Assembly (NCBI RefSeq): GCF_900698845.1 | Contig: NZ_LR217692.1 | Span: 310,001 to 374,000, forward strand | Length of the DNA: 64,000 nucleotides | Source: Buchnera aphidicola (Cinara cf. splendens/pseudotsugae 3390) | GTDB taxonomy: Bacteria > Pseudomonadota > Gammaproteobacteria > Enterobacterales > Enterobacteriaceae | Direction of reading: 5' to 3' | In this document: positions 327 through 36,879 of the stretch, piece by piece | Numbering within the stretch: the first letter of the stretch is position 1 | Layout: every line of letters begins with the position of its first letter | Notes under the pieces: model-generated | The model's input: the letters and a program-made list of their open reading frames with translations, nothing else | Databases searched by the model: none | Told to the model about the DNA's origin: nothing | Program-made: the position numbers and the translations under genes

Positions 327-1294
327 TTATACCATATCTTCACAATATAATAATGTAAGCAGATGCACCATGTCTAGAGGAGGACTGGTTATCCAAGTTT
401 TTAATTCATCGGTTACAGGGTGTACAAAGCTTAACATTCTAGAATGTAGAGACGGTCTGGAAAATCTACACAAAAAAATACATGTTTTTTTAGAATATCC
501 CAGTGAATTATATCTTATTCCTTTAGAATATGTACTATCTCCAAATATAGGGTGAGCAATGGAAGAAAAATGTACTCTAATTTGATGCATTCTCCCTGTT
601 TTTATTTGTACACGAACATATGTATAATTTTTGAATCTAGTAATAACTTTGTAGTGAGTAATTGCTTTTTTTCCTCCGCTACCAATTGTCATAATAGTTC
701 GACGATAAATGTTTCTTTTAATTGGATAATTGATACTTCCATTTCGTCCAATTCTTCCAACAACAATAGCGTCGTATTCTTTAATTATTTTACGGTTTTT
801 AAACAAACCAATTAAATAATTATATGCTAAAATTGTTTTAGCCACGACTAACAAACCTGATGTATTTTTATCTAATCTATGAACTATACCCGCTCTAGGT
901 AAACTGGAATTACTTTTATAATGAAAAATTAAAGCGTTTAATAATGTTCCAGATATATTTCCATAACCTAAATGAACAACAAAATTAGATGGTTTATTAA
1001 TTATCAATATCTCAGAATCTTCAAAAATAATATCTAATGGTATATTTTCTTTTTTTATTTTGGTGAGATTGAATTCATTATTGACGCACACAATAATTAA
1101 ATCATTAAAAAAAATTTTTTTTTTGGAACAGTAACAATAACATCATTTACAGATATACATCCTGATAAAATCCATTTTTTTATACACGAACGAGATATTG
1201 GAAAAAACTTTTGAACTAAAATTTTATCCAATCTACAAGACTTTAATTTTGACACAGTAGATATAAATTTTAATTTTATTGTATTAGAAGACAT
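327..1294 (-). CDS. rluD: 23S rRNA pseudouridine synthase RluD, split by a homopolymer frameshift
   Basis: RluD makes the pseudouridines of 23S rRNA helix 69 (1911, 1915, 1917 in E. coli). The N-terminal S4-like RNA-binding domain is read from ATG 1294 down to about 1110 (CIKKWILSGCISVND). The catalytic domain is in another frame from about 1106 to 327 and has HRLDKNTSGL with the catalytic Asp, and TGRMHQIRVH. The frames meet in a coding-strand tract of ten A and eight T (1107-1124). One extra base there gives PKKKFF-NDLIIVCVNN and a continuous protein of about 322 aa, against 326 in E. coli. Everything else looks intact, so the gene is either rescued by slippage, newly inactivated, or miscalled in sequencing. 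It is divergent from alaS. Confidence 0.85.
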
Positions 1295-1511
1295 ATTATA
1301 CTCATTAAATTTTGTATTTTTAAAAATAAAAAATAAATATTATATTTTAACATAAAAAATATTAAATTTAGATATTTTTGTATTCAAAAAATAATTAAAA
1401 ATTAATTTTACACATAAAATATTATCTTAATACATTAAAAAATCAAATATTTTATCTGTATAAGATAACTATATTTTTTATTTTAATAAACATTTTTAGG
1501 GAAAAAATTAT

Positions 1512-4166
1512 ATGAAAACTGATAAAATCCGATCTTTGTTTTTACAATTTTTTAAAGAAAAAAACCATACTATTGTTAAAAGTAGTTCTTTAATACCTGC
1601 AAACGATAACACTTTATTATTTACAAATGCAGGAATGAATCAATTTAAAGAAATATACTTAGGATATAAAAGAAACCAAACATCATCATATACTAGTTCT
1701 CAATATTGTATTCGAACAGGAGGAAAGCATAATGATTTCAATAAAGTGGGATATGAACCATACCACCATACATTATTTGAAATGCTCGGAAATTTTAGTT
1801 TTGGAGAATATTTTAAAGAAACGTCTATTATATATGCATGGGAATTTTTAACTCATAAAAAATGGTTAAAAATATCAAGAAAAAAAATATGGATCACATA
1901 TTATTATAAAGATATTGAAACAAAAAATATTTGGTTAAATAAAATAAAAATTCAACCTAATCACTTAATTACAATATATGACAAAAATAACATAAAATAT
2001 CATTCCAATAATTTTTGGAAAATGGGTGATTCAGGTCCATGCGGTCCATGTACTGAAATTTTTTACGATACAAGAAAAAATAATAAAGAAAAAAAAAAAA
2101 TTAAAAACTACAACGAACTAAAAAAATATTGTGTAGAAATTTGGAACTTAGTTTTTATGCAATTTAATCAAATTAGATCTAAAAAACTAATAAAATTACC
2201 CATTCCTTCAGTAGATACAGGTATGGGTTTAGAACGTATATCAGCAGTTTTGCAGAAAGTTTCCTCAAGCTATGAAACAGATAATTTTATTAAACTAATA
2301 CAATCTATCAAAAAAACTATAAAAATCAAATCAAATAACTATATTTCATTGAGAATTATTGCAGATCACATCCGAACAGCAACTTGTCTGATTTCTGAAA
2401 ATATAATACCTGGAAATGAAGGAAGAAATTATGTATTAAGAAGAATTATTAGAAGAGCATTAAGTCATGGATATTTTATAGGCTTACATAAACCTTTTTT
2501 TTATAAATTATCCGAATTTATAATCAAAAATATGACACAAATAAATGTAGATTTTAACATTTCTTCTAATATTAATGTTATAAAAAAAATACTATTGTCT
2601 GAAGAAAAACAATTTTATCAAGTATTGAAAATAGGAATGTACAAGTTAAAAAAAGAAATCATTGTCAATCAAACCAAAAAACTATGTGAAAAAAAAATAT
2701 TTCATTTATATGAAACATTTGGATTACCTATAGAAATTACAAAAGATATTTGCAAAAAAAAAAAAATATCTATTAATTTTCAAAAATTAAATCAAATAAT
2801 AAAATTAAATAAACAAAAACAAAAAAAAAAACATACACAAAAAAATCAACATAGTTCATGTTTAATACATATTACTAAGAAATCTATTTTTGATGGATAT
2901 CATGAATATATAAAAAAATCTAAAATTACTCAAATTATTTATAAAAATAAATCTGTTTCATATTTATCTGAAAAATGCGTAGGAATATTAGTATTAAATA
3001 TAACACCTTTTTATGGTGAATCTAGCGGACAAATAGGAGATTCAGGAAAAATAATCAATAAAAAAGGAACGTTTATAGTTAATAACACACAAAAAAATGG
3101 AAATTTTACTGCACACCTAGGATACCTTAAAAAAGGTATTTTATGCGTAGGAGAAAATATAGTTGCAAAAATAGATTCTAAAAAAAGAAAAAGAATACAA
3201 TCTAATCATTCTGCTTCACACTTATTACATGCCGCATTAATTAAAAAATTTGGATTGAATATAGTTCAAAAAGGATCCTATATAAATAATAAATACTTCC
3301 GATTCGATTTTATGTACAACGATAACCTTACAGAAAAAGACATTCAAAAATTAGAAATTATAATAAATAAAAAAATTCAAAAAAATATCAAAATACATGC
3401 TATTATTACATCATTTTCTCGAGCACAAAAATATAATGCTATATATTTATCATCTAAAAAATATAAAAATACCGTCCGTATGATCTGTATTAATAATTTT
3501 TCTATTGAATTATGTAATGGAACTCATCATGAATCTACTGGAAAAATAGGATGTTTTAAAATTATAAAATATAAAAATATTGGAAATTCAATAAAACGTA
3601 TTACTGCAATAACAGGTATACCCGTAATACATTATATTCAAAAAAAAATAAATAAAGAAAAAAAAATACAAAATTTACTAAAAAATAATTCCAATGATAT
3701 ATATAAATCAATAAAAAAATTAGTAAATAAAATTAGTTATATAAAAAAAGAAAAAAAAGACTTAACAAACCAAAATATTTCACAAATATCTAAAAATTTA
3801 ATATCAAAAGCATATAATATTAATGATATATTAATAATAATTTCATATATATCCCATTTAAAATATACAATGCTTAAAAATATATCTGATACTATCAAAC
3901 AAAAAAAAGAATCCGTTATTATTATACTAATCAATAAAAATACCTCAATAATAAGATTTTTAATTAGTGTTACTAATAATATTATTCAACATATAAATGC
4001 AATAGATGTTATGAATATAATATTTTCTATTTTATCTGGAAAAGGTGGAGGAAATAAAAATATTGTTAAAGGAAAATTAGAAAACACAAATATTATATCT
4101 GAAAAAATAAAAAAAATGAAAAAAAAAATCATAAAATATATACACGAAAATAATATATACAAATAA
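1512..4166 (+). CDS. alaS: Alanine--tRNA ligase
   Basis: AlaRS charges tRNA-Ala and removes mischarged Ser and Gly. The 884 aa length is close to the E. coli enzyme (876). The class II catalytic core is at the N-terminus (GGKHNDFNKVGYEPYHHT, then FEMLGNFSFGEYFK; motif 2 and 3 regions with MGDSGPCGPCTEI and DTGMGLERI). The editing domain keeps its zinc ligands: H566 and H570 in SNHSASH, and C668 and H672 in CNGTH. The C-terminal DHHA1 region ends with LSGKGGGNKNI. An AGGGA element lies 10 nt before the ATG. csrA follows, as in E. coli. The protein is very Lys/Ile/Asn-rich, like its neighbours, and nothing is missing from the active sites. Confidence 0.98.
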   Translation: MKTDKIRSLFLQFFKEKNHTIVKSSSLIPANDNTLLFTNAGMNQFKEIYLGYKRNQTSSYTSSQYCIRTGGKHNDFNKVGYEPYHHTLFEMLGNFSFGEYFKETSIIYAWEFLTHKKWLKISRKKIWITYYYKDIETKNIWLNKIKIQPNHLITIYDKNNIKYHSNNFWKMGDSGPCGPCTEIFYDTRKNNKEKKKIKNYNELKKYCVEIWNLVFMQFNQIRSKKLIKLPIPSVDTGMGLERISAVLQKVSSSYETDNFIKLIQSIKKTIKIKSNNYISLRIIADHIRTATCLISENIIPGNEGRNYVLRRIIRRALSHGYFIGLHKPFFYKLSEFIIKNMTQINVDFNISSNINVIKKILLSEEKQFYQVLKIGMYKLKKEIIVNQTKKLCEKKIFHLYETFGLPIEITKDICKKKKISINFQKLNQIIKLNKQKQKKKHTQKNQHSSCLIHITKKSIFDGYHEYIKKSKITQIIYKNKSVSYLSEKCVGILVLNITPFYGESSGQIGDSGKIINKKGTFIVNNTQKNGNFTAHLGYLKKGILCVGENIVAKIDSKKRKRIQSNHSASHLLHAALIKKFGLNIVQKGSYINNKYFRFDFMYNDNLTEKDIQKLEIIINKKIQKNIKIHAIITSFSRAQKYNAIYLSSKKYKNTVRMICINNFSIELCNGTHHESTGKIGCFKIIKYKNIGNSIKRITAITGIPVIHYIQKKINKEKKIQNLLKNNSNDIYKSIKKLVNKISYIKKEKKDLTNQNISQISKNLISKAYNINDILIIISYISHLKYTMLKNISDTIKQKKESVIIILINKNTSIIRFLISVTNNIIQHINAIDVMNIIFSILSGKGGGNKNIVKGKLENTNIISEKIKKMKKKIIKYIHENNIYK

Positions 4167-4277
4167 TACTTATATTATAAAAAACAAGTTTATGAATAAT
4201 ATATATATTATTTTATTTATTTTAATATGTTTAAAAAAACAAAATATATATTTTGTTTCTCAAAAGGAACGAAAGAA

Positions 4278-4469
4278 ATGCTTATTTTAACTCGTCGAAT
4301 TGGCGAAACGTTAATGATCGGCGATGAAATAACTGTAACAATTTTAGGGATTAAAGGAAATCAAATTCGTGTAGGAATTAATGCTCCTAAAAAAATATCT
4401 GTACATAGAGAAGAAATATATAAAAAAATTCAGCTAGAAAAAAATTCGTGTGAAGGAGATAAAAAATAA
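4278..4469 (+). CDS. csrA: Carbon storage regulator CsrA
   Basis: CsrA is a small dimeric RNA-binding protein that controls mRNA translation and stability at GGA motifs. From the ATG at 4278 it has 63 aa (61 in E. coli). It is among the best-conserved proteins here: [16 protein letters not shown], then [26 protein letters not shown]. The RNA-contact residues (Leu4 and Arg6 region, and the VHREEI strand) are present. An AAAAGGA element 9 nt upstream supports this start; the frame is open 17 codons further upstream, but those residues have no counterpart in the family. The retention of a global regulator in such a small genome, right behind alaS, is notable. A strong hairpin follows. Confidence 0.97.
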
Positions 4470-4473
4470 ACAC

Positions 4474-4507
4474 TTACTGTATTTTGTGAACATTCAAAAT
4501 ACAGTAA
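4474..4507 (+). terminator. Hairpin after csrA
   Basis: A perfect 13-bp inverted repeat (TTACTGTATTTTG at 4474-4486 and its complement at 4495-4507) encloses an 8-nt loop just after the csrA stop. It is not followed by a clear T run. A second, T-rich 11-bp hairpin lies at 4520-4548. Together they probably end or protect the alaS/csrA transcript. Confidence 0.6.
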
Positions 4508-4519
4508 AAATATCTTTAC

Positions 4520-4548
4520 TTGTTAAAAAATTTAATTTTTTTTAACAA
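4520..4548 (+). terminator. Second T-rich hairpin after csrA
   Basis: TTGTTAAAAAA (4520-4530) pairs with TTTTTTAACAA (4538-4548) across a 7-nt loop. It looks like a weak terminator and works sequence-wise in either direction. Confidence 0.4.
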
Positions 4549-4690
4549 ATATATTACTTAATATAATTAATATCATTTCATTAAGAAATCAATAAAAAAT
4601 AAATATTGAATGTGACAATAAAATTTCATTTGACTTATTTTATAAAAAAAGTAATATAGTCATATATATTTTTTATATATTTAATATATT

Positions 4691-4777
4691 GGTGAGATGG
4701 CCGAGTGGTTTAAGGCGCTCCCCTGCTAAAGGAGTATGTATTAATCTGCATCGAGGGTTCAAATCCCTCTCTCACCA
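4691..4777 (+). tRNA. tRNA-Ser(GCU)
   Basis: The acceptor arms GGTGAGA and TCTCACC pair, the anticodon loop is CTGCTAA (anticodon GCT), a long class II variable arm follows, and the T arm is GAGGG-TTCAAAT-CCCTC. It is very close to E. coli serV. Differences: the top pair of the anticodon stem is a C31-A39 mismatch, the base after the acceptor stem is A rather than the usual G73, and CCA is not encoded. Confidence 0.96.
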
Positions 4778-4793
4778 AAATAATATCATATAT

Positions 4794-4867
4794 GCATCCG
4801 TAGCTTAGTTGGATAGAGCACTCGGCTACGAACCGAGAGGTTGAAGGTTCAAATCCTTCCGGATGCA
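4794..4867 (+). tRNA. tRNA-Arg(ACG)
   Basis: The acceptor arms GCATCCG and CGGATGC pair, the anticodon stem-loop is CTCGG-CTACGAA-CCGAG with anticodon ACG, and the T loop TTCAAAT is standard. It follows tRNA-Ser by 16 nt and both are probably co-transcribed. CCA is not encoded. The A34 wobble base implies deamination by TadA, encoded outside this window. Confidence 0.97.
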
Positions 4868-4949
4868 TAAATAATATTTATATATATGAATAATAATTAA
4901 TTAATACCTTAATTTATGTTTTATTTTATATGAAATAGGATATTATATT

Positions 4950-5666
4950 TTGTATATTCCTAGAATTTATTTTAATAAATCAATAAAAGTTGACACAATT
5001 ATTAAATTAAAAAAAAACATGGTACATTTTTGTGTAAATGTAATTAGATTACGTATCAATGATATAATACATTTATTTAATAATACTAATTATATATTTA
5101 TCTCTAAAATATTAGACATAAAAAAAAAAAACATTTTAATAAAAATTATAAGTACACAACTAGACGATAAAGAATCCCCAATAAAAATTCATTTAGGACA
5201 ATGCGTGTCTAAAAAAATGAATATAACCATTGAAAAATCAGTAGAACTAGGTATTAATACCATTACTCCTATAATATCTAAAAAAAAAAATTCTGAGAAA
5301 TCAATATCTAAAAAAATATGTCATTGGGAAAAGATAATTATTTCTGCATGTGCTCAATCTCTTAGAAATATTGTACCTAAATTAAACACACCATCTACAA
5401 TACATCAATGGTGTGATAGCATCACTCCAAAATCTACTAAAATTATTTTTGATCCTAGAGCTAAAAATACAATTTATAATATTCCCAATCAATACAAAAA
5501 TATTTTTATATTAATAGGTTCAGAAAAAGGATTTCATGAATATGAAAAAAAATGTGCACAGGAAAAAAATTTTTTAAAAGTATCCCTAGGGCCTAGGGTA
5601 CTGCGAACTGAAACAGCAAGTATTGTAGCAATAACTGCATTACAAATACACTTAGGAGATATATAA
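4950..5666 (+). CDS. rsmE: 16S rRNA m3U1498 methyltransferase RsmE
   Basis: RsmE is a SPOUT-family enzyme that methylates N3 of U1498 in 16S rRNA. The frame starts with TTG at 4950, 9 nt after ATAGGA; the encoded MYIPRIYF matches the E. coli N-terminus MRIPRIYH. Length is 238 aa (243 in E. coli). An N-terminal PUA-like RNA-binding region is followed by the knotted SAM-binding domain, with LGQCVSKK, IEKSVELGI and the C-terminal knot LGPRVLRTETASIVAITALQ well kept. The usually invariant IGPEGG of the knot reads IGSEKG here, which may weaken cofactor binding. It is convergent with zapA, with 49 bp between the stop codons. Confidence 0.95.
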   Translation: MYIPRIYFNKSIKVDTIIKLKKNMVHFCVNVIRLRINDIIHLFNNTNYIFISKILDIKKKNILIKIISTQLDDKESPIKIHLGQCVSKKMNITIEKSVELGINTITPIISKKKNSEKSISKKICHWEKIIISACAQSLRNIVPKLNTPSTIHQWCDSITPKSTKIIFDPRAKNTIYNIPNQYKNIFILIGSEKGFHEYEKKCAQEKNFLKVSLGPRVLRTETASIVAITALQIHLGDI

Positions 5667-5715
5667 AATATATACTGTTAATCATTAATATATACAATAA
5701 TATAATCTAAAATAT

Positions 5716-6009
5716 CTATTTAGAATTTAAAGCAGAATCAATCATTTCATTCAAAACTAACATTCGTGATTTTATATGTTTAATACAATGAACAGATTTA
5801 TGTTTTTCTATCTCTAGTTCATAGCAAATATTTAAAGCAGTAATAAAAATTAATTGCTCTATATTAGAAACACCTGTTTTTTCCTTTAAGTCTTCCAATC
5901 TTTTATTTAAAATATTTGCTAGATAGTATAAATCTGAAGAATTTTTGTCAGGACAATTAACACGTATAAACCGACCAAAAACTTCTATATCAATAGATTT
6001 TAATGACAT
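5716..6009 (-). CDS. zapA: Cell division protein ZapA
   Basis: ZapA binds and bundles FtsZ filaments at the division site. The 97-aa protein matches E. coli ZapA (109 aa): IDIEVFGRFIRVNCP in the globular FtsZ-binding head, then RLEDLKEKTGVSNIEQLIFITALNI leading into the C-terminal coiled-coil. The start at 6009 (MSLKSIDIEVF) is chosen because AGAGAA lies just upstream and it fits the family. The frame is open eight codons further up, without homology. The coiled-coil is slightly shorter than in E. coli. rpiA lies behind it on the same strand, close to the E. coli arrangement near ygfA/serA. Confidence 0.93.
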   Translation of the reverse strand: MSLKSIDIEVFGRFIRVNCPDKNSSDLYYLANILNKRLEDLKEKTGVSNIEQLIFITALNICYELEIEKHKSVHCIKHIKSRMLVLNEMIDSALNSK

Positions 6010-6098
6010 AAATAATTCTCTATAAATAATCATTTTTAAAAAAAATATGTAATATTATCTAATAATCTATTTTCAAATCATACATCAATACATACATG

Positions 6099-6755
6099 TT
6101 ATAAAGAGATTTTATCTATTTTATCAACATAACTAACCAATACCAAATCTGCTTTTCTTATACAAAATAATCCTACAGATACAACTCCGGGTATATTATT
6201 TATATATTTCTCTAAATAAATAGAATTATCCATACATAAATTGTGCATATCAATAATATAATTACCATTATCTGTAATAAAATTTTTTCTATATTCAGGT
6301 TTTCCACCTAATTTTACTACTTCTCTGGATACACTATTTAATGAAATAGGAATTACTTCTACAGGAACAGGAACATTATCAAAATTTTTTACATATTTTG
6401 ATTTATCTACTATACATAAAAATTTTTTTGAAACAGAAGCTATAATTTTTTCTCTAGTTAAAGCCCCTCCGCCACCTTTTATCATTTCCAAAGAATGATT
6501 TATTTGATCTGCACTATCAATATAAATATCAAGTGATGTAAGTGTGTTTAAATTAACAATAGGTATATTAGACTTTTTTAATAAATCTTCTGATGTAGAA
6601 GAACTCGGTACAACTCCTCTAATATAACTAGAAATAGTTGATAACTCTTTAATAAAAAAATTTATTGTAGATCCTGATCCAATTCCAATTATTGAATTTT
6701 TTGGTACATAATTTATCGCAGATATAGCTACAGATTTTTTTAACGTATCAAACAT
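6099..6755 (-). CDS. rpiA: Ribose-5-phosphate isomerase A
   Basis: RpiA interconverts ribulose 5-phosphate and ribose 5-phosphate in the non-oxidative pentose phosphate pathway and so supplies PRPP for nucleotides, histidine and tryptophan. From ATG 6755 it has 218 aa (219 in E. coli). The signature loops are intact: GIGSGSTINFFI, DIYIDSADQIN, MIKGGGGALTREKI with the catalytic Glu, and KLGGKPEYRK. GGAG five bases upstream decides this start over the ATG six codons earlier. It reads towards zapA. Confidence 0.97.
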   Translation of the reverse strand: MFDTLKKSVAISAINYVPKNSIIGIGSGSTINFFIKELSTISSYIRGVVPSSSTSEDLLKKSNIPIVNLNTLTSLDIYIDSADQINHSLEMIKGGGGALTREKIIASVSKKFLCIVDKSKYVKNFDNVPVPVEVIPISLNSVSREVVKLGGKPEYRKNFITDNGNYIIDMHNLCMDNSIYLEKYINNIPGVVSVGLFCIRKADLVLVSYVDKIDKISL

Positions 6756-6961
6756 ATTTTCTCCATAATACATTAAAAATTATTTATCAAAAATAAAATG
6801 TTATAATGTTTTTTTTAGATAAATCAATTATAATCATGATAATAATAAAATTTAATTATTTCGTTAATTATTGTAATAACAAAACAATACATCCATTTTT
6901 ACACAAAAATAATTATTAAAAAAGTATTTTCATATAAACTATTGTATAAATAATATTTTAT

Positions 6962-7033
6962 CTGGGGTACCTGGATTCGAACCAGGGATGCCGGTATCAA
7001 AAACCGGTGCCGTAACCTCTTGGCTATACCCCA
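6962..7033 (-). tRNA. tRNA-Gln(UUG)
   Basis: Read on the minus strand, TGGGGTA pairs with TACCCCA, the anticodon loop is TTTTGAT (anticodon TTG), and the T loop is TTCGAAT. It is the first unit (by position) of a three-tRNA cluster like the E. coli glnU/leuW/metT operon. The discriminator is G, and CCA is not encoded. As the only Gln tRNA seen here, it would have to read both CAA and CAG. Confidence 0.96.
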
Positions 7034-7073
7034 AAATTCACATTAATAAAAATTTTTAATACTATTATAATTA

Positions 7074-7155
7074 TGCGGAAGGCGAGATTTGAACTCGCAA
7101 ACTTTTCAGCGCCAGAACCTAAATCTGGTGCGTCTACCATTTTCGCCACTTCCGC
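7074..7155 (-). tRNA. tRNA-Leu(UAG)
   Basis: On the minus strand GCGGAAG pairs with CTTCCGC, the anticodon loop is TTTAGGT (anticodon TAG), and a class II variable arm is present. It matches E. coli leuW closely. It is the middle gene of the minus-strand Met-Leu-Gln cluster. CCA is not encoded. Confidence 0.96.
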
Positions 7156-7179
7156 TACTTAATATATATATAATTTTTA

Positions 7180-7253
7180 TGGCTATAACGAGAATCGAAC
7201 TCGTGACCTCAGCGTTATGAGTGCTGCGCTCTAACCGACTGAGCTACATAGCC
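7180..7253 (-). tRNA. Elongator tRNA-Met(CAU)
   Basis: On the minus strand the sequence begins GGCTATGTAGCTCAGTCGG, has anticodon loop CTCATAA (anticodon CAT), and ends in ATAGCC. It matches E. coli elongator metT and not the Ile(k2C) tRNA. The closing pair of the anticodon stem is an A31-C39 mismatch. It is the promoter-proximal gene of the Met-Leu-Gln cluster and is divergent from glnS. Confidence 0.94.
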
Positions 7254-7441
7254 AGAATATTAAAAATACTAATATTTAAATATTAATTTTACACAAATAA
7301 AATGTTTTTTACAATAAAAATTTATAAAAATTATTTTATAAAAAAATAATTTTTTATAAAAAACATGATGTTTAGAAAACATATCAAATAAAAATACAAT
7401 AAAAATCATCATACATAAAATACATCAGGAATAGTTTAACA

Positions 7442-9103
7442 ATGAAACCTACAAACAACAACAATTTCATTAGTAAAATTGTAAAATATTCAATCTTAAA
7501 AAATCCTAAAAGAAAAATAAAAACACGGTTTCCACCAGAACCTAATGGGTACTTACATATAGGACATGCAAAATCTATATATTTAAATAATAATATTGCT
7601 AATAAATATAATGGTACATGTAATCTTAGATTTGATGACACAAATCCTAGAAATGAAAATGTAAAATACATTCAAGCAATTAAAAAGGATATAAAATGGT
7701 TAGGTTTAGATTGGTATAAAGCGCCAACATATACTTCAAATTACTTTAATCAATTATACCGATATGCAATTCAGTTAATAAAAAAAAAAGCAGCATATGT
7801 AGACGAATTAAACGCAAATGATATAAAAAAATATAGAGGAACGTTAAAAAAAACTGGAAAAAATAGTCCTTTTCGTAACCGAACCGTTAAAAAAAATTTA
7901 ACGTTGTTTAAAAAAATGAAAAACGGAATGTTTCCAGAAGGATCTATGTGTTTACGAGCAAAAATAGATATGAAATCATCATATATTATATTACGCGATC
8001 CTGTTTTATATAGAATCATTGTTTCTGAACATCATCAAACAAAAAAAAAATGGTGTATTTATCCCATGTATGATTTTGCACATTGTATTGCAGATGCTTT
8101 GGAAGGAATTACACACTCTTTATGTACATTAGAATTTTTAGATAATCGCCAATTATATATATGGATACTAGAAAAATTACATTTCAATAAAATACCTCCA
8201 AAACAATATGAATTTTCTAAATTAAATTTAGAATATACAATTTTATCTAAAAGAAAAATACAAAAGTTAATAAACCTTAAACTAGTAAGCGGATGGAAAG
8301 ATCCAAGACTAAGTACACTATCGGGTTTACGAAAAAGAGGATATACTAAAAATTCTATTAAAACATTTTGTCAGAAAGTAGGAGTTACTAGACAACAAAG
8401 TCTAATAGAATTATCTCTACTAGAGTCTTGTATACGAAAAGATCTTAATTATTCTTCTCCTAGAAGAATGGCTGTTATTAATCCTATTAAATTAATTATA
8501 ACAAATATTGATCATAATTATACAGAATACTTAGATGTTCCGAATCATCCTAATAGAAAAGAAATGGGTCACAGAAAAATTTTATTTTCCAGAGAAATAT
8601 ATATTGAAAAAGAAGATTTTTGTAAAAAATCTGTTATAGACTACAAAGGATTAGTATTAGGAAAAAAAGTTCGATTAAAATATGCATATACTATACGAGC
8701 AAATCAAATTATAAAAAACAAAAACAATGATATTTTATGTATTTTGTGTACTTATTACTTAAATACAAAAAAAACAAAAATCTTACCAAAAAAATCATAT
8801 AATATAATTCACTGGATATCTAAAAAAAATTCTACTAAAACTCAATTCAAATTATTTAATGTTTTATTTACATGTAAAAATCCAGAAAAAGAAAAAAACA
8901 TTATTCAATTATATAATCCTAATTCATGTATAATTAAAGTAGGGTATACTGAATCTATAGTAGATAATGAAGATATTCAACATGCTTACCAGTTTGAAAG
9001 AATAGGATATTTTTTAAAATTAAAAAAAAAAAATAAATATAATATTTTAGTATGTCATAGAATTGTATCTTTAAAAAATAAATATAAAAATCTAATAAAT
9101 TAA
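7442..9103 (+). CDS. glnS: Glutamine--tRNA ligase
   Basis: GlnRS charges tRNA-Gln; the matching tRNA gene lies 409 bp upstream. Length is 553 aa (554 in E. coli). The class I signature HIGH is at residues 39-42 within PPEPNGYLHIGHAKS, the KMSKS-type loop reads LSKRK at 268-272 as in E. coli (MSKRK), and DDTNPRNE of the Rossmann fold is present. Two C-terminal beta-barrels that read the anticodon follow. CAGGAAT about 11 nt upstream serves the ATG. In relatives pyrG lies between this region and eno; here it is absent. Confidence 0.98.
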   Translation: MKPTNNNNFISKIVKYSILKNPKRKIKTRFPPEPNGYLHIGHAKSIYLNNNIANKYNGTCNLRFDDTNPRNENVKYIQAIKKDIKWLGLDWYKAPTYTSNYFNQLYRYAIQLIKKKAAYVDELNANDIKKYRGTLKKTGKNSPFRNRTVKKNLTLFKKMKNGMFPEGSMCLRAKIDMKSSYIILRDPVLYRIIVSEHHQTKKKWCIYPMYDFAHCIADALEGITHSLCTLEFLDNRQLYIWILEKLHFNKIPPKQYEFSKLNLEYTILSKRKIQKLINLKLVSGWKDPRLSTLSGLRKRGYTKNSIKTFCQKVGVTRQQSLIELSLLESCIRKDLNYSSPRRMAVINPIKLIITNIDHNYTEYLDVPNHPNRKEMGHRKILFSREIYIEKEDFCKKSVIDYKGLVLGKKVRLKYAYTIRANQIIKNKNNDILCILCTYYLNTKKTKILPKKSYNIIHWISKKNSTKTQFKLFNVLFTCKNPEKEKNIIQLYNPNSCIIKVGYTESIVDNEDIQHAYQFERIGYFLKLKKKNKYNILVCHRIVSLKNKYKNLIN

Positions 9104-10744: not shown

Positions 10745-10789
10745 AATTATATACAATTTAGAACATATAATAAATATTGTTGTTTATAA

Positions 10790-18072: not shown

Positions 18073-19180
18073 ATGAAAAAAATATTAAATTTATCCACTT
18101 TAATTAAAAAAATACAACTATCTAAAAAAAAAATAATATTATTAAAGAGGAATCTTTGACTATGATAACAATAAAAAAAAAATTCAATCTATTAATTCTA
18201 AATTAAAAAATTTAAAATTTTATAAAAATTCTAAATTAATATCACATCTATACAAAAAAAAGAATATTTTATCCAAAAACAAAAATGATATTATACGAAT
18301 TACTAATATACTACAAGATATAGAATGTTGGATAAAAATATTTATACAAGAACCCGATAAAATTATTGAAAAAGAAATAAATATACAATATAAAAAATTA
18401 AAAAAAAAATTAAAAAAACTAGAAATATACATCATGTTTCACCATAAACACGATCATAATAATTGTTATATAGATATACAATCAGGATCAGGAGGAATTG
18501 AATCACAAGATTGGACAAAAATGTTATTAAAAATGTATCTAAAATATTCATTCAGTAAAAAATTTAAAAGTAAAATAATATCCCAATCAGTAGGAGAAAC
18601 AGGTGGTATAAAATCTATTACATTAAAAATTAAAGGTGAATATGCGTTTGGTTGGTTTAGAACTGAAACAGGTATACATAGATTAGTACGAAAAAGCCCT
18701 TTTGACATAAACAACAAAAGACATACTTCATTTAGTTCTGTATTTGTATACCCCGAATTAAAAAAAAATATTCATATAGATATTAAACCGAAAAATCTAA
18801 GAATAGATGTTTACCGATCTTCAGGAGCTGGAGGACAACACGTCAATAAAACAGAATCTGCTGTACGCATTACACATATACCTACCGGTATTGTAACACA
18901 ATGTCAAAATGAAAGATCTCAGCATAAAAATAAACATGCCGCTCTAAAACAATTAATATCTAAATTATATCGAATAGAAACAGAAAAAAAAAAAATAGAA
19001 AAAAAAAATACAAATACAAAAAAACCTAGTATTCGATGGGGAAACCAAATTCGTTCATATATATTAGATGATTCTAGAATAAAAGATATCCGAACAAACA
19101 TAGAAAGAAATGATGTATATCAAATTTTAAATGGTGATTTGCATCAATTTATTGAAACTAGTTTAAAAATGGGATTATAA
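18073..19180 (+). CDS. prfB: Peptide chain release factor 2 (programmed +1 frameshift)
   Basis: RF2 ends translation at UGA and UAA. Translation starts at ATG 18073 and reads 28 codons to an in-frame TGA at 18157; ribosomes must slip +1 at CTT TGA C (18154-18160) to continue with DYDNNKKK. An internal Shine-Dalgarno AGAGG sits three bases before CTT, exactly as in E. coli. The shifted product has 368 aa (365 in E. coli). The stop-reading SPF motif (RLVRKSPFD) and the catalytic GGQ loop (SGAGGQHVN) are intact. The frame from 18434 alone is not the gene. RF2 shortage favours slippage, so this is autoregulation. lysS follows after 9 bp, as in E. coli. Confidence 0.97.
18146..18160 (+). promoter_or_regulatory. 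prfB programmed frameshift site
   Basis: AGAGG (internal SD), three-base spacer AAT, slippery CTT, then in-frame TGA followed by C. This is the canonical bacterial RF2 arrangement (E. coli has an AGGGGG element, TAT, CTT TGA C). After the shift the reading frame is open to the end of the gene. Confidence 0.95.
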
Positions 19181-23651: not shown

Positions 23652-24106
23652 ATGAACATATATCTACAGATTGCATGTAAAAAAAAATTTTTTTTCCCAA
23701 AAAAAAATTTTTTTTATCATGTTTAAAAAAAATTTTTAAAAAAAAAAAAGTAGAAATTACTATTAGATTAGTAGATCTTATAGAAATCCAGTTACTCAAT
23801 AAAAAATATCGAAATAAAAATATACCCACAAATGTATTATCATTTCCAGCTACTAGTAATATATATATAAAACATAAATTTCGAAATTATATAGGAGATA
23901 TAATACTCTGCGCTCATTACATCAACAAAGAATCTTTATTATTACGGAAAAATATATTAGAACATTGGGCACATATGATAATTCATTCTACATTACATCT
24001 ATTACATTATACTCATAATACTGCTCAATCTGCAAAAAAAATGCAAACAGTAGAAAATATAATCATGAAAAAATTAGGTTTTCTTAATCCATATAACTTA
24101 TACTAA
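23652..24106 (+). CDS. ybeY: Endoribonuclease/rRNA maturation factor YbeY, split by a homopolymer frameshift
   Basis: YbeY is a metal-dependent RNase in 16S rRNA 3'-end maturation and ribosome quality control. The N-terminus MNIYLQIACKKKFFFPK is in one frame; from about 23696 to 24106 the next frame carries VEITIRLVD, NVLSFPA, GDIILCAHY and the metal motif HMIIHSTLHLLHYTH, which keeps every His of the H3xH5xH signature. The junction lies in two copies of A9T8 separated by CCC (23679-23715). One added base there gives an uninterrupted protein of 151 aa (155 in E. coli). The intact catalytic part argues against old decay. It lies 55 bp after miaB. Confidence 0.85.
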
Positions 24107-26974: not shown

Positions 26975-26978
26975 AACC

Positions 26979-28329: not shown

Positions 28330-28364
28330 ATATAATGTATAAATATATCAAATATAAAATTATT

Positions 28365-29480: not shown

Positions 29481-30220
29481 AATTATTATTCTCAATTATA
29501 TAAATTATATGTAATAAATGATAAAAATCATATACTCATACAACTACATTATTATATATCTCATTAAAGATAATTTAATACTTTATTATTTATTCATTAC
29601 AATAAATTTTACTATAAAAATTACATTAAATTTACTAAGAAAAAATAATTTCATTACTTTATTAAAATTAATAATTTTATTATACTATAAAAATTAACAA
29701 TTTGATAAAATACTTGTGGTAATTATTGTTAATGTAAATTAAATTATAAAATTACATATTTTTTAAAAAACATACAGATGTGTGTTACAAAAAATAATTA
29801 TTTAAATTCATTAAAAATTTAATTATATATATCTTTAGTATTATATACACAGAATATTTTATATATAACTTAAATATATAAAAATAATTGTAATTATGAA
29901 TTTTTAAAATAATATTAATTAATAAAAAAATATTTATATTTTTTATTAATCAAAAAATTAAGTATAATGATTTAACAAATATATTTCTTAAAAACAAAAC
30001 AATCACAATAATATGAATTAGTAATTAATTAAACATATATTTATATTTCTCAAAATAACCTTATTACATAAATAATTTTTCATATATATATAATTTTCAT
30101 AATAAATAAATTATATGTATTTATTATAAAAAATTAAAAAATTATATATAGTAAAATATATAAATAACTATAAATATTAAATATTTATATAGTCAAAAAA
30201 TTGTATAAATAAATAAATGG
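29481..30220. other. 740-bp region without genes between asd and pgk (divergent)
   Basis: The longest empty stretch in the window. It has no frame with recognisable homology on either strand and no tRNA-like fold. It must hold the asd and pgk promoters. It is very A/T-rich and looks like the fully eroded site of one or more lost genes. Confidence 0.55.
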
Positions 30221-31375
30221 ATGAATAAAATGTTACATATGCAAGATATTGATCTAAATAATAAAAGAGTATTTATTAGATTAGATTTAAATGTTCCGTT
30301 ACACAACGGAAAAATTACTTCTAGTGAACGAATTGATCGAGCAATTCCGACAATAAAATTAGCATTAAAAAAAAATGCAAAAATAATAATAGCTTCCCAT
30401 TTAGGAAGACCAAAAGAAAATCAGTACGATAAAAAATTTTCTTTATTTCCTGTATTTAAATATTTACAAAAAAAATTATACGGAATAAATATAATTTTTT
30501 TACAAGACTATTTACAAGGAGTATCAATCGAGTCTAACCAGATAGCTGTATTAGAAAATGTTCGATTTAATCCAGGAGAAACAAAAAACAACGAACAATT
30601 ATCCCAAAAATATGCTAATTTATGTGATATTTTTATAATGGACGCTTTTGCTACCGCTCATAGAGTAGAATCTTCTACGTATGGAATTTGTAGTTTTGTG
30701 AAAAAATCGTGCATCGGTCCATTGTTATATTCAGAAATAAAAACATTAAAACGCATATTCCATAAATCACAACATCCTATAACTACAGTAATTGGTGGAG
30801 CTAAAGTATCTACAAAATTTAAATTATTAAGTTCGTTACTAAAAATTACAGATAATATGTTAGTAGGAGGAGGAATAGCTAATACATTTATTTCTGCATT
30901 TCATTCGGTGGGAAGATCATTACATGAAAAAAATTTCAAAAAAATAGCAAAAAAACTATATGAAACAAAAAAAATATTTTTACCTATAGATTCTTTAGTT
31001 AGTACATCATATTCAATAACATCAACGGCTCAAGAAAAATTAATTTCTAATATTATGCCTAATGAAGAAATCTTAGATATAGGCAATAAAACTATTCAAA
31101 ATTACACAAAAAAAATTCAAAAAGCTAAAACAATAATTTGGAATGGTCCTATGGGAGTATTTGAATTTCCAAATTTTAGAAAAGGAACTCGGGAAATTGC
31201 ACAATCAATTGCAAATAGTGCTGCTTTTTCTATTGCTGGAGGAGGAGATACAATCGCAGTCATTGATTTATTTAATTTAAAAAATAAAATTTCTTATATT
31301 TCTACTGGAGGAGGTGCTTTTTTAGAATTCATAGAAAATAAAACTTTACCTATTCTAAAAAAACTAAAATACTAA
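30221..31375 (+). CDS. pgk: Phosphoglycerate kinase
   Basis: Pgk transfers phosphate from 1,3-bisphosphoglycerate to ADP in glycolysis. Length is 384 aa (387 in E. coli). Substrate-binding RLDLNVPLHNG, ASHLGRPKE and VLENVRFNPGE, the hinge, and nucleotide-binding GGAKVSTK, GNGPMGVFEFPNF (WNGPMG) and GGGDTIA are intact. Two ATGs are possible: 30221, or 30230, which has GGA 9 nt upstream and fits the E. coli N-terminus about as well. fbaA follows 70 bp later, so they form the E. coli-like pgk-fbaA-mscS cluster. Confidence 0.97.
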   Translation: MNKMLHMQDIDLNNKRVFIRLDLNVPLHNGKITSSERIDRAIPTIKLALKKNAKIIIASHLGRPKENQYDKKFSLFPVFKYLQKKLYGINIIFLQDYLQGVSIESNQIAVLENVRFNPGETKNNEQLSQKYANLCDIFIMDAFATAHRVESSTYGICSFVKKSCIGPLLYSEIKTLKRIFHKSQHPITTVIGGAKVSTKFKLLSSLLKITDNMLVGGGIANTFISAFHSVGRSLHEKNFKKIAKKLYETKKIFLPIDSLVSTSYSITSTAQEKLISNIMPNEEILDIGNKTIQNYTKKIQKAKTIIWNGPMGVFEFPNFRKGTREIAQSIANSAAFSIAGGGDTIAVIDLFNLKNKISYISTGGGAFLEFIENKTLPILKKLKY

Positions 31376-31445
31376 TAAATTATAGAGTTATAATATTTTC
31401 ATTGAAGTATACCAATGATGATATTTTTATAAAATAGGAAAAATT

Positions 31446-32525
31446 ATGTGTAAAATTTTAGACTATATTAAACCAGGCGTACTAAATTCCAAAGAAACAC
31501 AAATTATTTTTTCATTAGCTAAAAAACATAAATTTGCCATACCTGCTATAAATTGTATTAGTACTGATTCAATGAATAGCGTACTAGAATCTGCTGCAAA
31601 AATGCAATCTCCAGTAATTATTCAGTTTTCTTATGGAGGAGCTTCTTTCATTAGTGGATTAGGGTTAAAAAATCATAAACCTCACTCAAATGCAATAATA
31701 GGCGCTATATCAGGAGCACAACATATTCATTTATTGGCTAAATATTATAAAATACCGGTTATATTGCATACTGATCATTGTGATATACATAATCTTGAAT
31801 GGATTGACGGTTTAATTAAAGAAGGGAGTAAATTTTTTAAAAAAAATAAACGCCCACTATTTTCTTCTCATATGATTGATTTATCTAAAGAGTCAATAAA
31901 AAAAAACACAACTATTTCATCTCAGTATCTAAAAAAAATAACTAAATTGAATATGTTTTTAGAAATAGAATTAGGTTGTACCGGAGGAGAAGAGGATGGT
32001 GTAAATAACCTTAACATAAATAAAAAACTATTATATACTGACACTAAAGATATTTATTATACTTTTAAAAAATTAATCAAAATCAGTAATAATTTTATTA
32101 TTGCTGCAGCATTTGGAAATACACACGGGGTATATCAACCTGGTAATATATTATTGAAACCTTCTATTTTAAAAAAAGCACAAAAATATATAAGCAAAAA
32201 AAAAAAATTACCGCATAACCCATTAAATTTTGTTTTTCATGGAGGATCAGGGACAAATAGTAGTAATATCAAAAAATCTATCAATTATGGAGTTGTAAAG
32301 TTTAACATTGACACAGATATACAATGGAGTTATTGGAAAGGGGTATTAGATTTTTATTGTAAAAATAAACAGTATTTACATAGTCAGTTAGGAAACTCCC
32401 TGGAAGCTAATCAACCAAATAAAAAATATTATGATCCTAGAGTATGGTTGCGAAGCGCACAAAATAATTTAACAAAATATTTAGAAAAAATGTTTAAACT
32501 ACTAAATTCTTTCGAAAAATTATAA
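31446..32525 (+). CDS. fbaA: Fructose-bisphosphate aldolase, class II
   Basis: FbaA is the zinc-dependent aldolase of glycolysis. Length is 359 aa, the same as E. coli. The zinc-ligand segment VILHTDHCD, ELGCTGGEEDGV, FGNTHGVYQPGN, and the second zinc His in FVFHGGSGTN are all present, as are the phosphate-binding FNIDTDIQWS and the C-terminal PNKKYYDPRVWLR. AGGA 8 nt before the ATG is a good RBS. It is co-directional with pgk. Confidence 0.98.
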   Translation: MCKILDYIKPGVLNSKETQIIFSLAKKHKFAIPAINCISTDSMNSVLESAAKMQSPVIIQFSYGGASFISGLGLKNHKPHSNAIIGAISGAQHIHLLAKYYKIPVILHTDHCDIHNLEWIDGLIKEGSKFFKKNKRPLFSSHMIDLSKESIKKNTTISSQYLKKITKLNMFLEIELGCTGGEEDGVNNLNINKKLLYTDTKDIYYTFKKLIKISNNFIIAAAFGNTHGVYQPGNILLKPSILKKAQKYISKKKKLPHNPLNFVFHGGSGTNSSNIKKSINYGVVKFNIDTDIQWSYWKGVLDFYCKNKQYLHSQLGNSLEANQPNKKYYDPRVWLRSAQNNLTKYLEKMFKLLNSFEKL

Positions 32526-32650
32526 ATAATAATAAATGTATATTCTTATTGTGAAAACATAAAATCATGATATGATGATATATCATTCGTATCATTTAAA
32601 ATAAATATATGACTCTTATTAAATATTTTTAAAAAAAATATGTTATTGTA

Positions 32651-32679
32651 TTGACAATTTTGAGTTACTCAAATATATA
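32651..32679 (+). promoter_or_regulatory. Probable sigma-70 promoter of mscS
   Basis: TTGACA (32651-32656) is followed after 17 bp by TATATA (32674-32679), about 70 bp before the mscS ATG. The spacer holds a small inverted repeat, TTTGAG-TTA-CTCAAA (32659-32673). A consensus -35 is rare in this window, which adds weight. Confidence 0.6.
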
Positions 32680-32747
32680 AATTAATTATTATTTTTTAAT
32701 ATTGAATAAAAATATTTATTTTTTAATACTCTTTAATACAATAAAAA

Positions 32748-33677
32748 ATGCGCAAAAAAATTTTTGCTATAAAAAAAATAATAGAAGCATTCTATGTAAT
32801 AAACTGCATAAATAACATTGGTTTATGTTTTTTATTAAACAAACAAATGTTTATATCTTATATAACAAATTTATTTTTTGCAATTATTATAATAATTATT
32901 GGTTTTTTTTTTAGTCAATTTCTTGCCAATGGAGCTCTTAAGTTGTTTTCTGCTCGTCACATAGACAATACTGTTTCTGGCTTTTTATCTACTTTAGCTC
33001 GTTACACAGTTATTACTTTTACAGGAATCATTGCTTTAGGTCAGATTGGTGTACAAACAAAATCCATAATTGCTATAATAGGAGCGTCCGGAATGGCTGT
33101 AGGATTGGCTTTACAAGGATCTCTGTCGAATTTTGCTGCAGGTGTCTTATTAATTTTATTAAGACCTCTTAGAACGAGTGAATATGTAAATTTAGGAAAT
33201 GCTGCTGGAACAGTACTACATGTACACATTTTTTATACAACTTTAAAAACACTAGATGGAAAAATTATAATTATACCTAACGGAAAAATTGTTGCTGGTA
33301 ATATTATTAATTATTCTCGTGAACCAATACGAAGAAATCAATTTGTGATAAACGTTGCTTATGATTCAGATGCAGATCTAGTGATTTCAGTTCTACAGGC
33401 AGTTATTGATCAAGAAGAACGTGTATTAAAACATCCAGGTAATTTTGTTGGATTAAATGAATTTTCACCTTCTTCATTAAAATTTATAGTTAAATGTTGG
33501 TGTCATACAACAGAATTAAATTCCGTATATTCTGATTTAATGTTAAATTTTAAAAAAGCTTTAGATAAACACAATATTACTATTCCATATCCAAAAATGG
33601 ATATTTATTTTTATAAAAAAATAAACAAAATATTAAAAATAAGCGATATAAATAGTGTAGAGAGAAAGAAAAAGTAA
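32748..33677 (+). CDS. mscS: Small-conductance mechanosensitive channel MscS
   Basis: MscS is an inner-membrane heptameric channel that releases solutes on osmotic downshock. Length is 309 aa (286 in E. coli), with about 12 extra residues at the N-terminus. Three membrane helices are visible; the pore helix TM3 keeps the Gly/Ala packing pattern (ASGMAVGLALQGSLSNFAAGVLL), followed by RPLRTSEYVNLGNAAGTV and the cytosolic cage (IPNGKIVAGNIINYSREP). It lies next to fbaA as in E. coli. No clear RBS precedes the ATG. A hairpin separates it from recC. Confidence 0.97.
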   Translation: MRKKIFAIKKIIEAFYVINCINNIGLCFLLNKQMFISYITNLFFAIIIIIIGFFFSQFLANGALKLFSARHIDNTVSGFLSTLARYTVITFTGIIALGQIGVQTKSIIAIIGASGMAVGLALQGSLSNFAAGVLLILLRPLRTSEYVNLGNAAGTVLHVHIFYTTLKTLDGKIIIIPNGKIVAGNIINYSREPIRRNQFVINVAYDSDADLVISVLQAVIDQEERVLKHPGNFVGLNEFSPSSLKFIVKCWCHTTELNSVYSDLMLNFKKALDKHNITIPYPKMDIYFYKKINKILKISDINSVERKKK

Positions 33678-33698
33678 TACACATAAAATCTAAAATAG

Positions 33699-33725
33699 TA
33701 TAGCGTAGAAATTTTCTACGCTATA
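33699..33725 (+). terminator. Hairpin between mscS and recC
   Basis: TATAGCGTAGAA (33699-33710), loop ATT, TTCTACGCTATA (33714-33725): a perfect 12-bp stem with a three-base loop. It lies 22 bp after the mscS stop and lacks a T tail. It probably forms the 3' end of the pgk-fbaA-mscS transcripts. Confidence 0.6.
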
Positions 33726-33757
33726 AAATTATAATACTAAGAATGTTATTAACTATC

Positions 33758-36700
33758 ATGTTAAAAATATATCAATCTAATCAAATGAATTTTTTAGTAA
33801 CAAAGTTATGTAAAAAAATACAGTCCAAAAAAAATTTTTTCAATAAAAAAACTATTTTAATTAACAATACTTACATCAAACAATGGTTAGAAATACAAAT
33901 ATCCAAAAAATTAACAATTTGTATGAATACACAATATGTAGAAATTTCTAAATTTTTTATTAACTTAATAAAACAATCTGACTATAAACTGAAAACGGTA
34001 AAACCTAGCATATTTGAAGTAAAATATTTAAAATGGATTTTAATGTCTATTATTAGTAAAAAAAAAGATTGTATATTTTTAAAAGAAAATGGTATTCAAT
34101 ATAATAATTATGAATTTTGTTTACATATGGCAAATGTTTTTGTTAAATATATTTTTTTTCAACCAGATTTAATTTATACGTGGGAACAAGAAATAAAAAA
34201 TAATATTTGGGAAAAAAAAACAATATGGCAAAAAAAATTATGGAGTGTAGTAATACAAAAAAAAAAAAATTCAGGAATTACAAGCTTTACTGAAATTATA
34301 AATAATTTTAATAGAAACATAGATAACTCTTGTTTTTTAAAATTTATACCAAAAAAAATTTTGATATTTTCAAACACATCTATAAATCCATTTATTACAA
34401 CAATATTACATATCATTAAAAATATAACTTCAATATATTTATTTCAATATGCCTTTAAAAAAAAAAAAAATATACAAATACATCAATTGATTTTTTAATT
34501 AAAAAAAAAAATTTATTAATAAAACAAAAAACAAAAAAACTCTTATATTATAAAAAAAATTTTTTTTATAAAAAAATATACACAAATAATATTTTATATA
34601 AATTACAATATGATATATTTAAAAATTCGCTAGAAAGTAGCGTTTCAACAAAAATACATTATGAGAATCATCATTCCCTTTCTATAAATCAATGTAGTTC
34701 TTATCTACAAGAAATTCAAGAACTATATAAATACATCATACATATATTAAATACTAAAAAAAAAATAACACTAAATAATATTTTAATTACAGCTGATAAT
34801 ATAAAACCTTATATTTTTTATATTAATAACATATTTAATTCCACAAAAAAAAATAATTCTATAATTCATAGTATTTCAAAAAGTAACAAAAATAAAAAAA
34901 AAATAATTTTAACTATAAAAAATTTATTTAAAATTAAAAACAATCGTTTTAAATATTCATGGGTATTATCTCTTCTAAACACAAAGTATTTAAGAAAAAA
35001 ATTTTACATTAAGTCTAGCGATATTAAAACACTATATTCCTTTATATCTGATTTATATATTCGTTTTGGATTTGATAAAAATCAATTCAAAAAAATGTCT
35101 ATTCCTAAAATTAATACATATTCATGGGAATATGCAATTAGTAGAATAACAACAGGATATGGAGCACAAAAAAATTATTCAATATGGAATAATATTTCTA
35201 CTTATAATGTATCTTGCAAAAAAAGTAATATACTATTAGGTAATTTTATTAATTTAATCATTACGTTAAATCAACTAAGAAAAAAATTATTAAATAAAAA
35301 AACGTTAAAAAATTGGTTTCATATTTTCACAAAAATAATAAATAAATTTTTTCATATACCTCTTAAATACAAAAAATTCTTCTTTATTCTAGAAAATAAA
35401 TGGAAAAATATAGTCTCTGAAGGAATTATTATGAATTATTCAGAAAAAATATCTATTGATATTATAACGGATATTTTTTTCAAAAATAGTTATTCATTAT
35501 TCAAACATGACGCATTTTTCACTGGAAAAATCAATATCACGAATCTAAAAAATGTAAGAACTATTCCGTTTAAAATGATTTGTGTTCTAGGATGTATACA
35601 AGGTAATACCCCTTCTCTAAAAAAAATAGATGGATTGAATCCTTCTAGTAAAAAAATATATCACGATAATAAAAATATATTTTTTGAAACCATTATGTCT
35701 ACTCAAAAATATTTTTTTTGTAGCTTTGTTAAAACAACAGTTACAGAAAGTACATCTTATGCATCAAAATATATTATGGATATCATATTTTATCTAAAAA
35801 AAATTTTTTATATAAAAAAAAATGTGTTTACTAAAAAAAAAAAAAATTACATCAATAATATATATATTAAACATGAATATCAAACAAATCATTCATATTT
35901 TATAAATCAAAAAACAGAATATTTATTACATAAAAAAAATTTTTTTAATAACTATAAAAAAATAAAAAAAACTACTCAAAAAAATATTTCAATTAAAAAA
36001 TTAATAAATTTTTGGAAAAATCCAATTCAGTACTATTTTAAAAAAATATTAAAAATACCAAAAATAGATAACACAACAGAAATTTTATCAGAAGATGAAT
36101 TATTTTCTATAAATTCTCTAAATCAATATTATATTAATAAAAAAATTTTAAAAAAAAAAATTCTAAATAAAAAAACTAACTCATTATATAAAAAATTAAA
36201 ATTACAAAATAAAATTCCATATGGATATGTTGGGAAAGTTTTATGGAAAAAACAAGAAAAAAAAATAAATATTTTAGCAAAAAAAATTAATGCTTTAAGA
36301 AACTCTCCAACTAAAAAAAAAATCAACATAAAAATAAAAAAATATAAGTTATCAGGAATTGTAAAAGAAATAAATGCATACGGTCTAATTAGATGGTCTG
36401 CTAGCCAAATTAACTATAAAATTATAATTTCAACGTGGATTGAACACATAATTTATTGTTCATTACATTCACGTACAAAAAGTATATTATTAGGAATTAA
36501 TAATTCAAGTATAAAATTTTTACCTTTAAAAAAAAATAAAGCTAAAAAATATCTAAAAAAATATCTCCAAGGATATTTAGATGGTATAAAAAAACCTATA
36601 TTAATATTAAATTCTGGAATTATTTGGCTACAATCATTATATATTCCAAAATACCGTATATTAAATACTAACACTAATGTTTATATTATTGCTAAAAGAA

Positions 36701-36879
36701 ATTTTTTGAAAAAATGGAATGGAAATTCATTTTTTGCAGGTGAGAAAAAAAATATTTATGTTCAAAAATTAATACCATACATAAATACTACTCAAATAAA
36801 AAAAATTTGTAATACATGTAAATATTGGTTATTACCTCTTTTAAAAAATTCTAATATTAAAAAATATCATTTAAAATAA
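33758..36879 (+). CDS. recC: Exodeoxyribonuclease V subunit RecC, split by a poly(A) frameshift
   Basis: RecC holds the RecBCD complex together and recognises Chi during double-strand break repair. The start ATG at 33758 gives MLKIYQSNQMNFL (E. coli MLRVYHSNRLDVL). The first frame runs to a stop at 34496, but homology leaves it at a run of 14 A (34457-34470). The next frame is then open without a stop from 34471 to 36879, including VSTKIHYENHHSLSINQ and TYSWEYAISRITTGYGA (E. coli TWRFGLTRMLLGYA). One added A joins them into about 1040 aa (1122 in E. coli). The long second part starts far before the first ATG in that frame (35095), so the middle 208 codons are coding too. Confidence 0.88.

Follow-up and report, generated by a model that had tools for sequence, protein, structure and literature searches.

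Three genes split by one base

The window analysed here is a stretch of 64,000 nucleotides, positions 310001-374000 of the 444,777 bp chromosome of the Buchnera aphidicola genome under study (G000). Three of its genes, rluD, ybeY and recC, are each split by a single base, at A10/T8, A9/T8 and A14 tracts, respectively, with the downstream frame at -1 (Table 1). We use "one base short" where the DNA lacks one base and the downstream frame is at -1, and "one base long" for the reverse. Gene pieces and names were assigned with NCBIfam profiles; for rluD and recC each of the two pieces gave a match, and for ybeY the downstream one did. The N-terminal and C-terminal open reading frames (ORFs) of rluD (1097-1294 and 327-1091) matched adjoining parts of the RluD profile NF008385, the frame from the ybeY ATG hit a stop at 23722, shortly past the tract, and recC of the sister genome (G003) had A15 at the same tract and a whole frame of 1,048 aa. 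A frameshift-aware aligner read one event in each of the three genes, with the DNA one base short. A sequence-only reading of this DNA had held that the three genes are each off by one base in the same direction at A/T tracts, and the frames, profiles and aligner all confirmed this.

Table 1 Split genes of the window and their pieces (window coordinates).
Feature	Position	Strand	Remarks
rluD, whole locus	327-1294	minus	
rluD, upstream piece (S4 domain)	1125-1294	minus	In frame from ATG to tract; NF008385 positions 9-59 (E=2e-7)
rluD, break tract	1107-1124	minus	Coding strand A10 then T8; the tract opens at the third position of a Pro codon
rluD, downstream piece (catalytic domain)	327-1106	minus	-1 frame; NF008385 positions 76-312 (E=3e-79); ATG/GTG/TTG ORF 327-1091
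ybeY, whole locus	23652-24106	plus	
ybeY, upstream piece	23652-23678	plus	From ATG to tract
ybeY, break tract	23679-23695	plus	A9T8
ybeY, downstream piece	23696-24106	plus	-1 frame; TIGR00043 positions 30-144 (E=9e-31)
recC, whole locus	33743-36879	plus	
recC, upstream piece	33743-34456	plus	TIGR01450 positions 1-238
recC, break tract	34457-34470	plus	A14; A15 in the sister genome
recC, downstream piece	34471-36879	plus	-1 frame; TIGR01450 positions 501-1062; listed ORF has its first ATG at 35095

Breaks shared among congeneric genomes

The three genes and rluC, which lies outside the window, were read in 16 congeneric genomes, all separate assemblies, and changes were counted over a tree of the 16 built from these same four genes. 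In 14 of the 16, G010 and G013 being the exceptions, rluD carried its break at one common run. Each of these copies was one base short, the run read A10 in 13 and A9G in G012, and the pattern corresponds to a single change. rluC was split at the linker between its S4 and catalytic domains in 11 genomes, all one base short, at runs of A11 to A15. ybeY was one base short at the same place in five (G000, G003, G011, G015 and G002), a state accounted for by two changes, and one base long at this place in G006.

recC was one base short in ten of the 16. The break fell within a Lys-rich segment (residues 242-273) in seven (G000, G001, G002, G005, G007, G012 and G015; five changes) and near residue 30 in three (G008, G011 and G013), and recC of G003, G004, G006, G009 and G014 had no break. 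The break at the A14 tract is private to G000, with six other species breaking within the same segment; in three of these (G005, G012 and G015) the aligner also read a stop at most 28 residues from the shift. Because the sites recur in separate assemblies, the breaks of rluD, rluC and ybeY are not credible as shared assembly errors. We are certain that the DNA itself carries the rluD and ybeY frame breaks, and it is likely to carry that of recC as well.

Number, direction and run length of breaks

Breaks were called with the aligner between six genomes, namely five whole chromosomes and positions 1-280000 of the 433720 of G015. In a control, 400 of 400 planted one-base changes were recovered with the correct sign. 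A total of 11 breaks were accepted in G000, all at runs of at least 9. Ten are one base short (dnaA A21, ung A13, fabZ T12, lipB A13, rluC A13, tatD-like A11, hscA A13, rluD A10, ybeY A9 and recC A14), and one, ruvX at A18, is one base long. Six of them (rluD, rluC, ybeY, tatD-like, hscA and lipB) are common to G003 and/or the close relative G011 at the same site; the leucine plasmid of G011 is identical (100%) to that of the Cinara pseudotaxifoliae symbiont. The class of genes implied by the sequence-only reading is thus larger than the three of the window, and its members may be expressed only by RNA polymerase error, as that reading proposed.

Over the coding A/T runs of five genomes, 43 accepted breaks fell in the 2,574 runs of at least 9 and none in the 7,998 runs of 7 or 8. 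By length, the counts were 0 of 5,153 (length 7), 0 of 2,845 (8), 3 of 1,453 (9), 11 of 587 (10), 11 of 283 (11), 5 of 111 (12), 8 of 68 (13), 3 of 43 (14) and 2 of 29 (15 or more), so that 18 of the 251 runs of at least 12 were called broken. Over the six genomes the hand tally gave 25 sites one base short and 6 one base long (p=0.0009 versus 1:1). One-base-long cases are ruvX in G000, fabZ in G011 and in G015 and, among the 16 congeneric genomes, ybeY in G006; the uniform direction noted by the sequence-only reading holds for the three window genes and is not complete beyond them.

Run counts were computed, and break counts and site tallies were collapsed by hand, with events of identical gene, site and sign counted once (the tusC splits of G007 and G013 as one, the fabZ breaks of G011 and of G015 as two). 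Before the tally we dropped events close to the end of a gene, events seen with one query only at the N terminus or in the leader, the tails of split query sequences (e.g., G003 344664 and 344727), alignments that held a stop or two shifts, and all events at runs shorter than 9. Also dropped were a FlgH-like gene at its C-terminal end (G000 and G003), G013 114361 and 443467, G011 218352, events at 310 of 322 aa (G000 271908 and its orthologues), and a dnaA event 20 residues before the end (G011, A13, one base short with four queries, mirrored as one base long in G000 and G003). lepB of G007, which the alignments read as two bases too long against some references and one base short against others, was kept among the 43 breaks and left out of the 25:6 tally. 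Acceptance used a run filter; when the search was repeated without it, the short-run events were leader or gene-end events, tails of split queries, and alignments with further shifts or stops. We read none of them as a clean single break inside a gene; nearest to one came a 365-aa gene (G000 263702) and the leader event at 314229/314339.

The other candidate events in the window, at chromosome positions 314229 (window 4229; a single query, A7, in the leader just 5' of the ATG read as the csrA start) and 367876 (where the alignment crosses genes and holds a stop), were not accepted as breaks. At 18154-18160 of the window, prfB carries a CTTTGAC motif with GAGG just 5', presumably the ordinary programmed +1 frameshift, a separate recoding event and not a broken gene. 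Besides its chromosome, the G000 assembly holds two small contigs (5,959 and 2,686 bp), the first of which is a leucine plasmid by similarity.

Several other genes showed tract differences between genomes. dnaA, at about 6324 of G000 (minus strand), is split at A21, with the G003 copy intact over a 310-residue ORF and carrying stops further upstream, and the gene may be eroding; dnaA of G011 is one base short at A13 near its end. The fabZ T-run is 12 in G000 (183508, one base short) and 14 in G011 (184197) and G015 (178649), where it is one base long; G003 has a whole gene, to whose protein the others are 77-97% identical. In G013 the tract breaks form another set, to which era, holB, polA, rsmE, rsmI, sbcB, lepB, tusC and nfo belong. 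Its polA break was counted once; a 555-aa ORF of G007 is the second half of polA. tusC lacks one base at a shared T10 in G007 (391614) and G013 (402100, minus strand) and is whole in G000, G003 and G011, and murE is split in G015.

Selection on the split genes

Between G000 and G003 the synonymous rate (dS) had a median of 0.20 (331 pairs), low enough for use, and the ratio of nonsynonymous to synonymous rates (dN/dS) had a genome median of 0.155 (330 genes; 5-95% range 0.03-0.33). The split genes gave 0.230 (rluD), 0.169 (ybeY), 0.293 (recC) and 0.159 (rluC). Where both copies are split, the median dN/dS of the downstream piece was 0.34 for rluD (91 pairs), 0.22 for rluC (55) and 0.23 for ybeY (10), many of these pairs being distant. 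With G011 as the outgroup, lineage changes in G000, where the gene is broken, and G003, where it is unbroken over the compared ORF, stood at 41:36 for recC, 8:7 for ung, 0:4 for fabZ, 3:1 for ruvX and, limited to the 310-residue ORF of G003 and with the N-terminal part out of frame in G003 too, 14:13 for dnaA.

Genes broken in G000 evolve no faster than their unbroken copies in G003, and the split genes are not dead, with whole-gene rates that are not pseudogene-like. The sequence-only reading had proposed looking for dN/dS near 1 in the three window genes and comparing broken with unbroken genes; the whole-gene values are 0.17-0.29, and the broken copies show no acceleration.

Probable rescue by RNA polymerase slippage and its alternatives

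The best explanation, to which we assign a probability of about three in four, is rescue by +1 RNA polymerase slippage, where both the slippage and the share of corrected transcripts are inferred. A run of A or A/T of at least 9 would let the RNA:DNA hybrid in RNA polymerase shift back one position, so that a fraction of transcripts would gain one A (or U) and encode the full protein. The protein made from these corrected transcripts would be kept by purifying selection, and one-base-short genes would persist because slips in Buchnera homopolymers are more often insertions than deletions. For the polymerase to slip, a run of about 9 is needed, and this is the length at which the accepted breaks begin. 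In the cited data on Buchnera transcription, homopolymers showed 151 insertions and 16 deletions (PMC5574713), from which our 25:6 direction of breaks is not distinguishable (Fisher p=0.12). Slippage rescue has precedents in Buchnera and Blochmannia in the passages cited (PMC3164680, PMC3017870, PMC5009743), and corrected transcripts are there given as 12-50% for other endosymbiont genes (PMC5009743). The genes described here share the traits of that class: a single break in a homopolymer of at least 9 in an otherwise whole gene and, for rluD and ybeY, a break shared between relatives.

Several observations weigh against slippage rescue. When three doubtful one-base-long groups are put back, the direction weakens to 25:9 (p=0.009), and replication that tends to shorten long runs could also give this direction; a noncoding-run control for mutational direction had 25 informative runs, with only 2 expansions versus 2 contractions. 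The run-length rule rests on accepted events, and a 365-aa gene of G003 without an NCBIfam match is, in G000 (263702, minus strand), one base short at A7 with a further stop; this gene is probably eroding. Since 233 of the 251 coding runs of at least 12 were not called broken, the frame still matters, and rescue is not efficient enough to make it irrelevant. By dN/dS, recC ranks at the 92nd percentile, its N piece at the 97th and that of rluD at the 98th. The short upstream pieces of rluD and ybeY are under weak constraint, or the measure of it is poor: their median dN/dS over split pairs is noisy, at 0.60 and 0.85, respectively (0.26 for rluC). Finally, recC and ybeY of G010 carry several breaks each and have a decayed look, unlike the single-break genes, and -1 ribosomal slippage on A_AAA_AAA would rescue in the same direction. 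The probabilities of the alternatives overlap, as different genes may have different answers.

In this ribosomal alternative, which we consider unlikely, -1 frameshifting on an in-frame slippery A_AAA_AAA would join the two frames in translation. The downstream frame is at -1 in rluD, ybeY and recC and in 25 of the 31 accepted site-events, the heptamer is contained in the in-frame A runs of 9 when the codons are read, and the A9G of G012 rluD gives A_AAA_AAG. The usual stimulators were not found, however: none of 30 split sites had a Shine-Dalgarno-like motif in the 20 nt upstream, and there was no excess folding downstream on average (mean z -0.08 for rluD, -0.75 for rluC and -0.78 for ybeY; single sites -3.3 to +2.9). 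Moreover, although 7 bases suffice for a heptamer, the runs of 7-8 gave no clean single break that was accepted, and -1 frameshifting cannot serve the six one-base-long cases (e.g., fabZ T14 and ruvX A18).

That the split genes are recent pseudogenes whose decay is not yet visible is very unlikely. recC and the rluD N piece are in the top tenth of the genome for dN/dS, and the two multiply broken G010 genes do show the relaxed constraint and accumulating breaks of ordinary pseudogenes. These traits are not found in the other split genes: the rluD split is common to most of the clade with its catalytic piece still under purifying selection, and recC, dnaA, ung, fabZ and ruvX show no acceleration in G000. 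We rejected this reading on the evolutionary rates.

Homopolymer under-calling, by which the true runs would be one base longer than assembled, had been offered by the sequence-only reading beside slippage rescue and is extremely unlikely as a general account. The mostly uniform direction agrees with it, as does the fact that most breaks found only in G000 lie at long runs (dnaA A21, recC A14, ung A13, fabZ T12). Against it stand the identical site and frame state in 14 (rluD) and 5 (ybeY) of the 16 genomes, the six of 11 G000 breaks common to close relatives, and the 233 long runs without a break. Under-calling is rejected for rluD and ybeY, as the same split recurs in separate assemblies, and is unlikely for recC of G000, given the splits of the same segment in six other species, the 18 broken among 251 long runs, and runs of up to 22 in the assembly; an assembly artefact is possible for the private dnaA, ung, fabZ, ruvX and recC breaks. 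Of the two readings offered, we favour slippage rescue.

Gene fission, with the S4 and catalytic domains made as two proteins and the second from an internal start, is highly improbable and was rejected, since the break of rluD and rluC at the same domain junction and a GTG 23 nt past the rluD tract in G000, G011 and G001 are set against the lack, among the 14 split rluD, of a start codon at a shared position 3' of the tract (first downstream-frame ATG at 158-423 nt, first ATG/GTG/TTG at 23-326 nt) and against residues before the internal starts that still align to whole homologues.

Recurrence of the rluD break beyond Buchnera

Whole RluD was searched against 149 genomes of the family, with some weak matches falling outside those listed (e.g., G063 and G065). 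Besides G000, at least seven of the genomes listed had an RluD open frame below 300. Six short-frame genomes were read at the base level (G023, G032, G069, G072, G073 and G102); G042 (49% complete) was left out, and the others were judged by frame length. In five of the six (all but G073), belonging to five different genera, rluD was split at the same Pro-Lys-Lys-Lys, at A9 and in the same direction. The only available congener of G032's genus has a long rluD frame, and the breaks of the other genera likely arose independently. In the 428 kb genome G073, the rluD locus (301500-302900) has the catalytic domain in frame and no S4 domain in frame. A scan of genome contigs with the RluD alignment gave 80 distant relatives among the matches listed, with no Buchnera among them. 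In the cited passage of a 2025 paper on Blochmanniella, hisH, lptG, rluD and ybiS are named as genes that deletions or frameshifting indels have putatively inactivated (PMC12779916).

A further, quite unlikely idea is that selection maintains a recoding site in the Lys linker that joins the S4 domain to the catalytic domain in the rRNA pseudouridine synthases RluD and RluC, recurrent in several AT-rich endosymbiont lineages and always in the same direction. The one-base-short state would then persist for its control of how much full-length enzyme is made, or for a separate S4 peptide that it yields.

Relation to known frameshifts and significance

The class of homopolymer frame breaks is already known, and rluD, rluC and the others are added members. 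Like the genes rescued by poly(A) slippage of Tamas et al. 2008, as that study is cited in PMC5009743, PMC3164680 and PMC3017870, they have a single indel in a long A/T run of an otherwise whole gene in an AT-rich insect endosymbiont, with some frameshifts common to several species. The published cases, as given in these passages, are cell-wall genes and a histidine gene, murF, murE and mraY, and dnaX, dnaG, dxs, pth, ribF and others of Blochmannia, whereas here the genes are rluD, rluC, ybeY, recC, tatD-like, hscA, lipB and others; one split is kept in 14 of 16 species, and the present cases were read in DNA. In the passages cited, Degnan et al. 2011 reported 1 to 18 homopolymeric frameshifts per genome in eight Buchnera genomes, with 3 in the symbiont of Cinara cedri (chromosome 416,380 bp; PMC3164680), and treated most as single-genome or convergent, unlike the widely shared rluD split, and these passages give no dependence on direction or run length; conserved homopolymeric frameshifts in Blochmannia were described by Williams and Wernegreen (PMC3017870). 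Programmed -1 frameshifting of the dnaX type, as summarised in PMC5009743, shares the slippery A heptamer and the -1 product, but no Shine-Dalgarno or structural stimulator was found at the split sites here.

We found no recognisable prior description of the rluD and rluC splits in Buchnera in the literature searched by title, abstract and passages, although Table S3 of Degnan et al. may list some. Apparently new, to us, are the depth of the rluD break, its return at a single codon in six genera, the similar split of rluC, and the rules of direction and length.

A gene split in this way is readily taken for a pseudogene, and gene losses counted in reduced genomes may be overestimated as a result. 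Conserved housekeeping genes are among the split copies, namely rluD, rluC, ybeY, hscA, fabZ and lipB in G000 and era, holB and polA in G013. The rluD break, kept across 14 species, offers a natural system for gauging how far a genome relies on RNA polymerase error.

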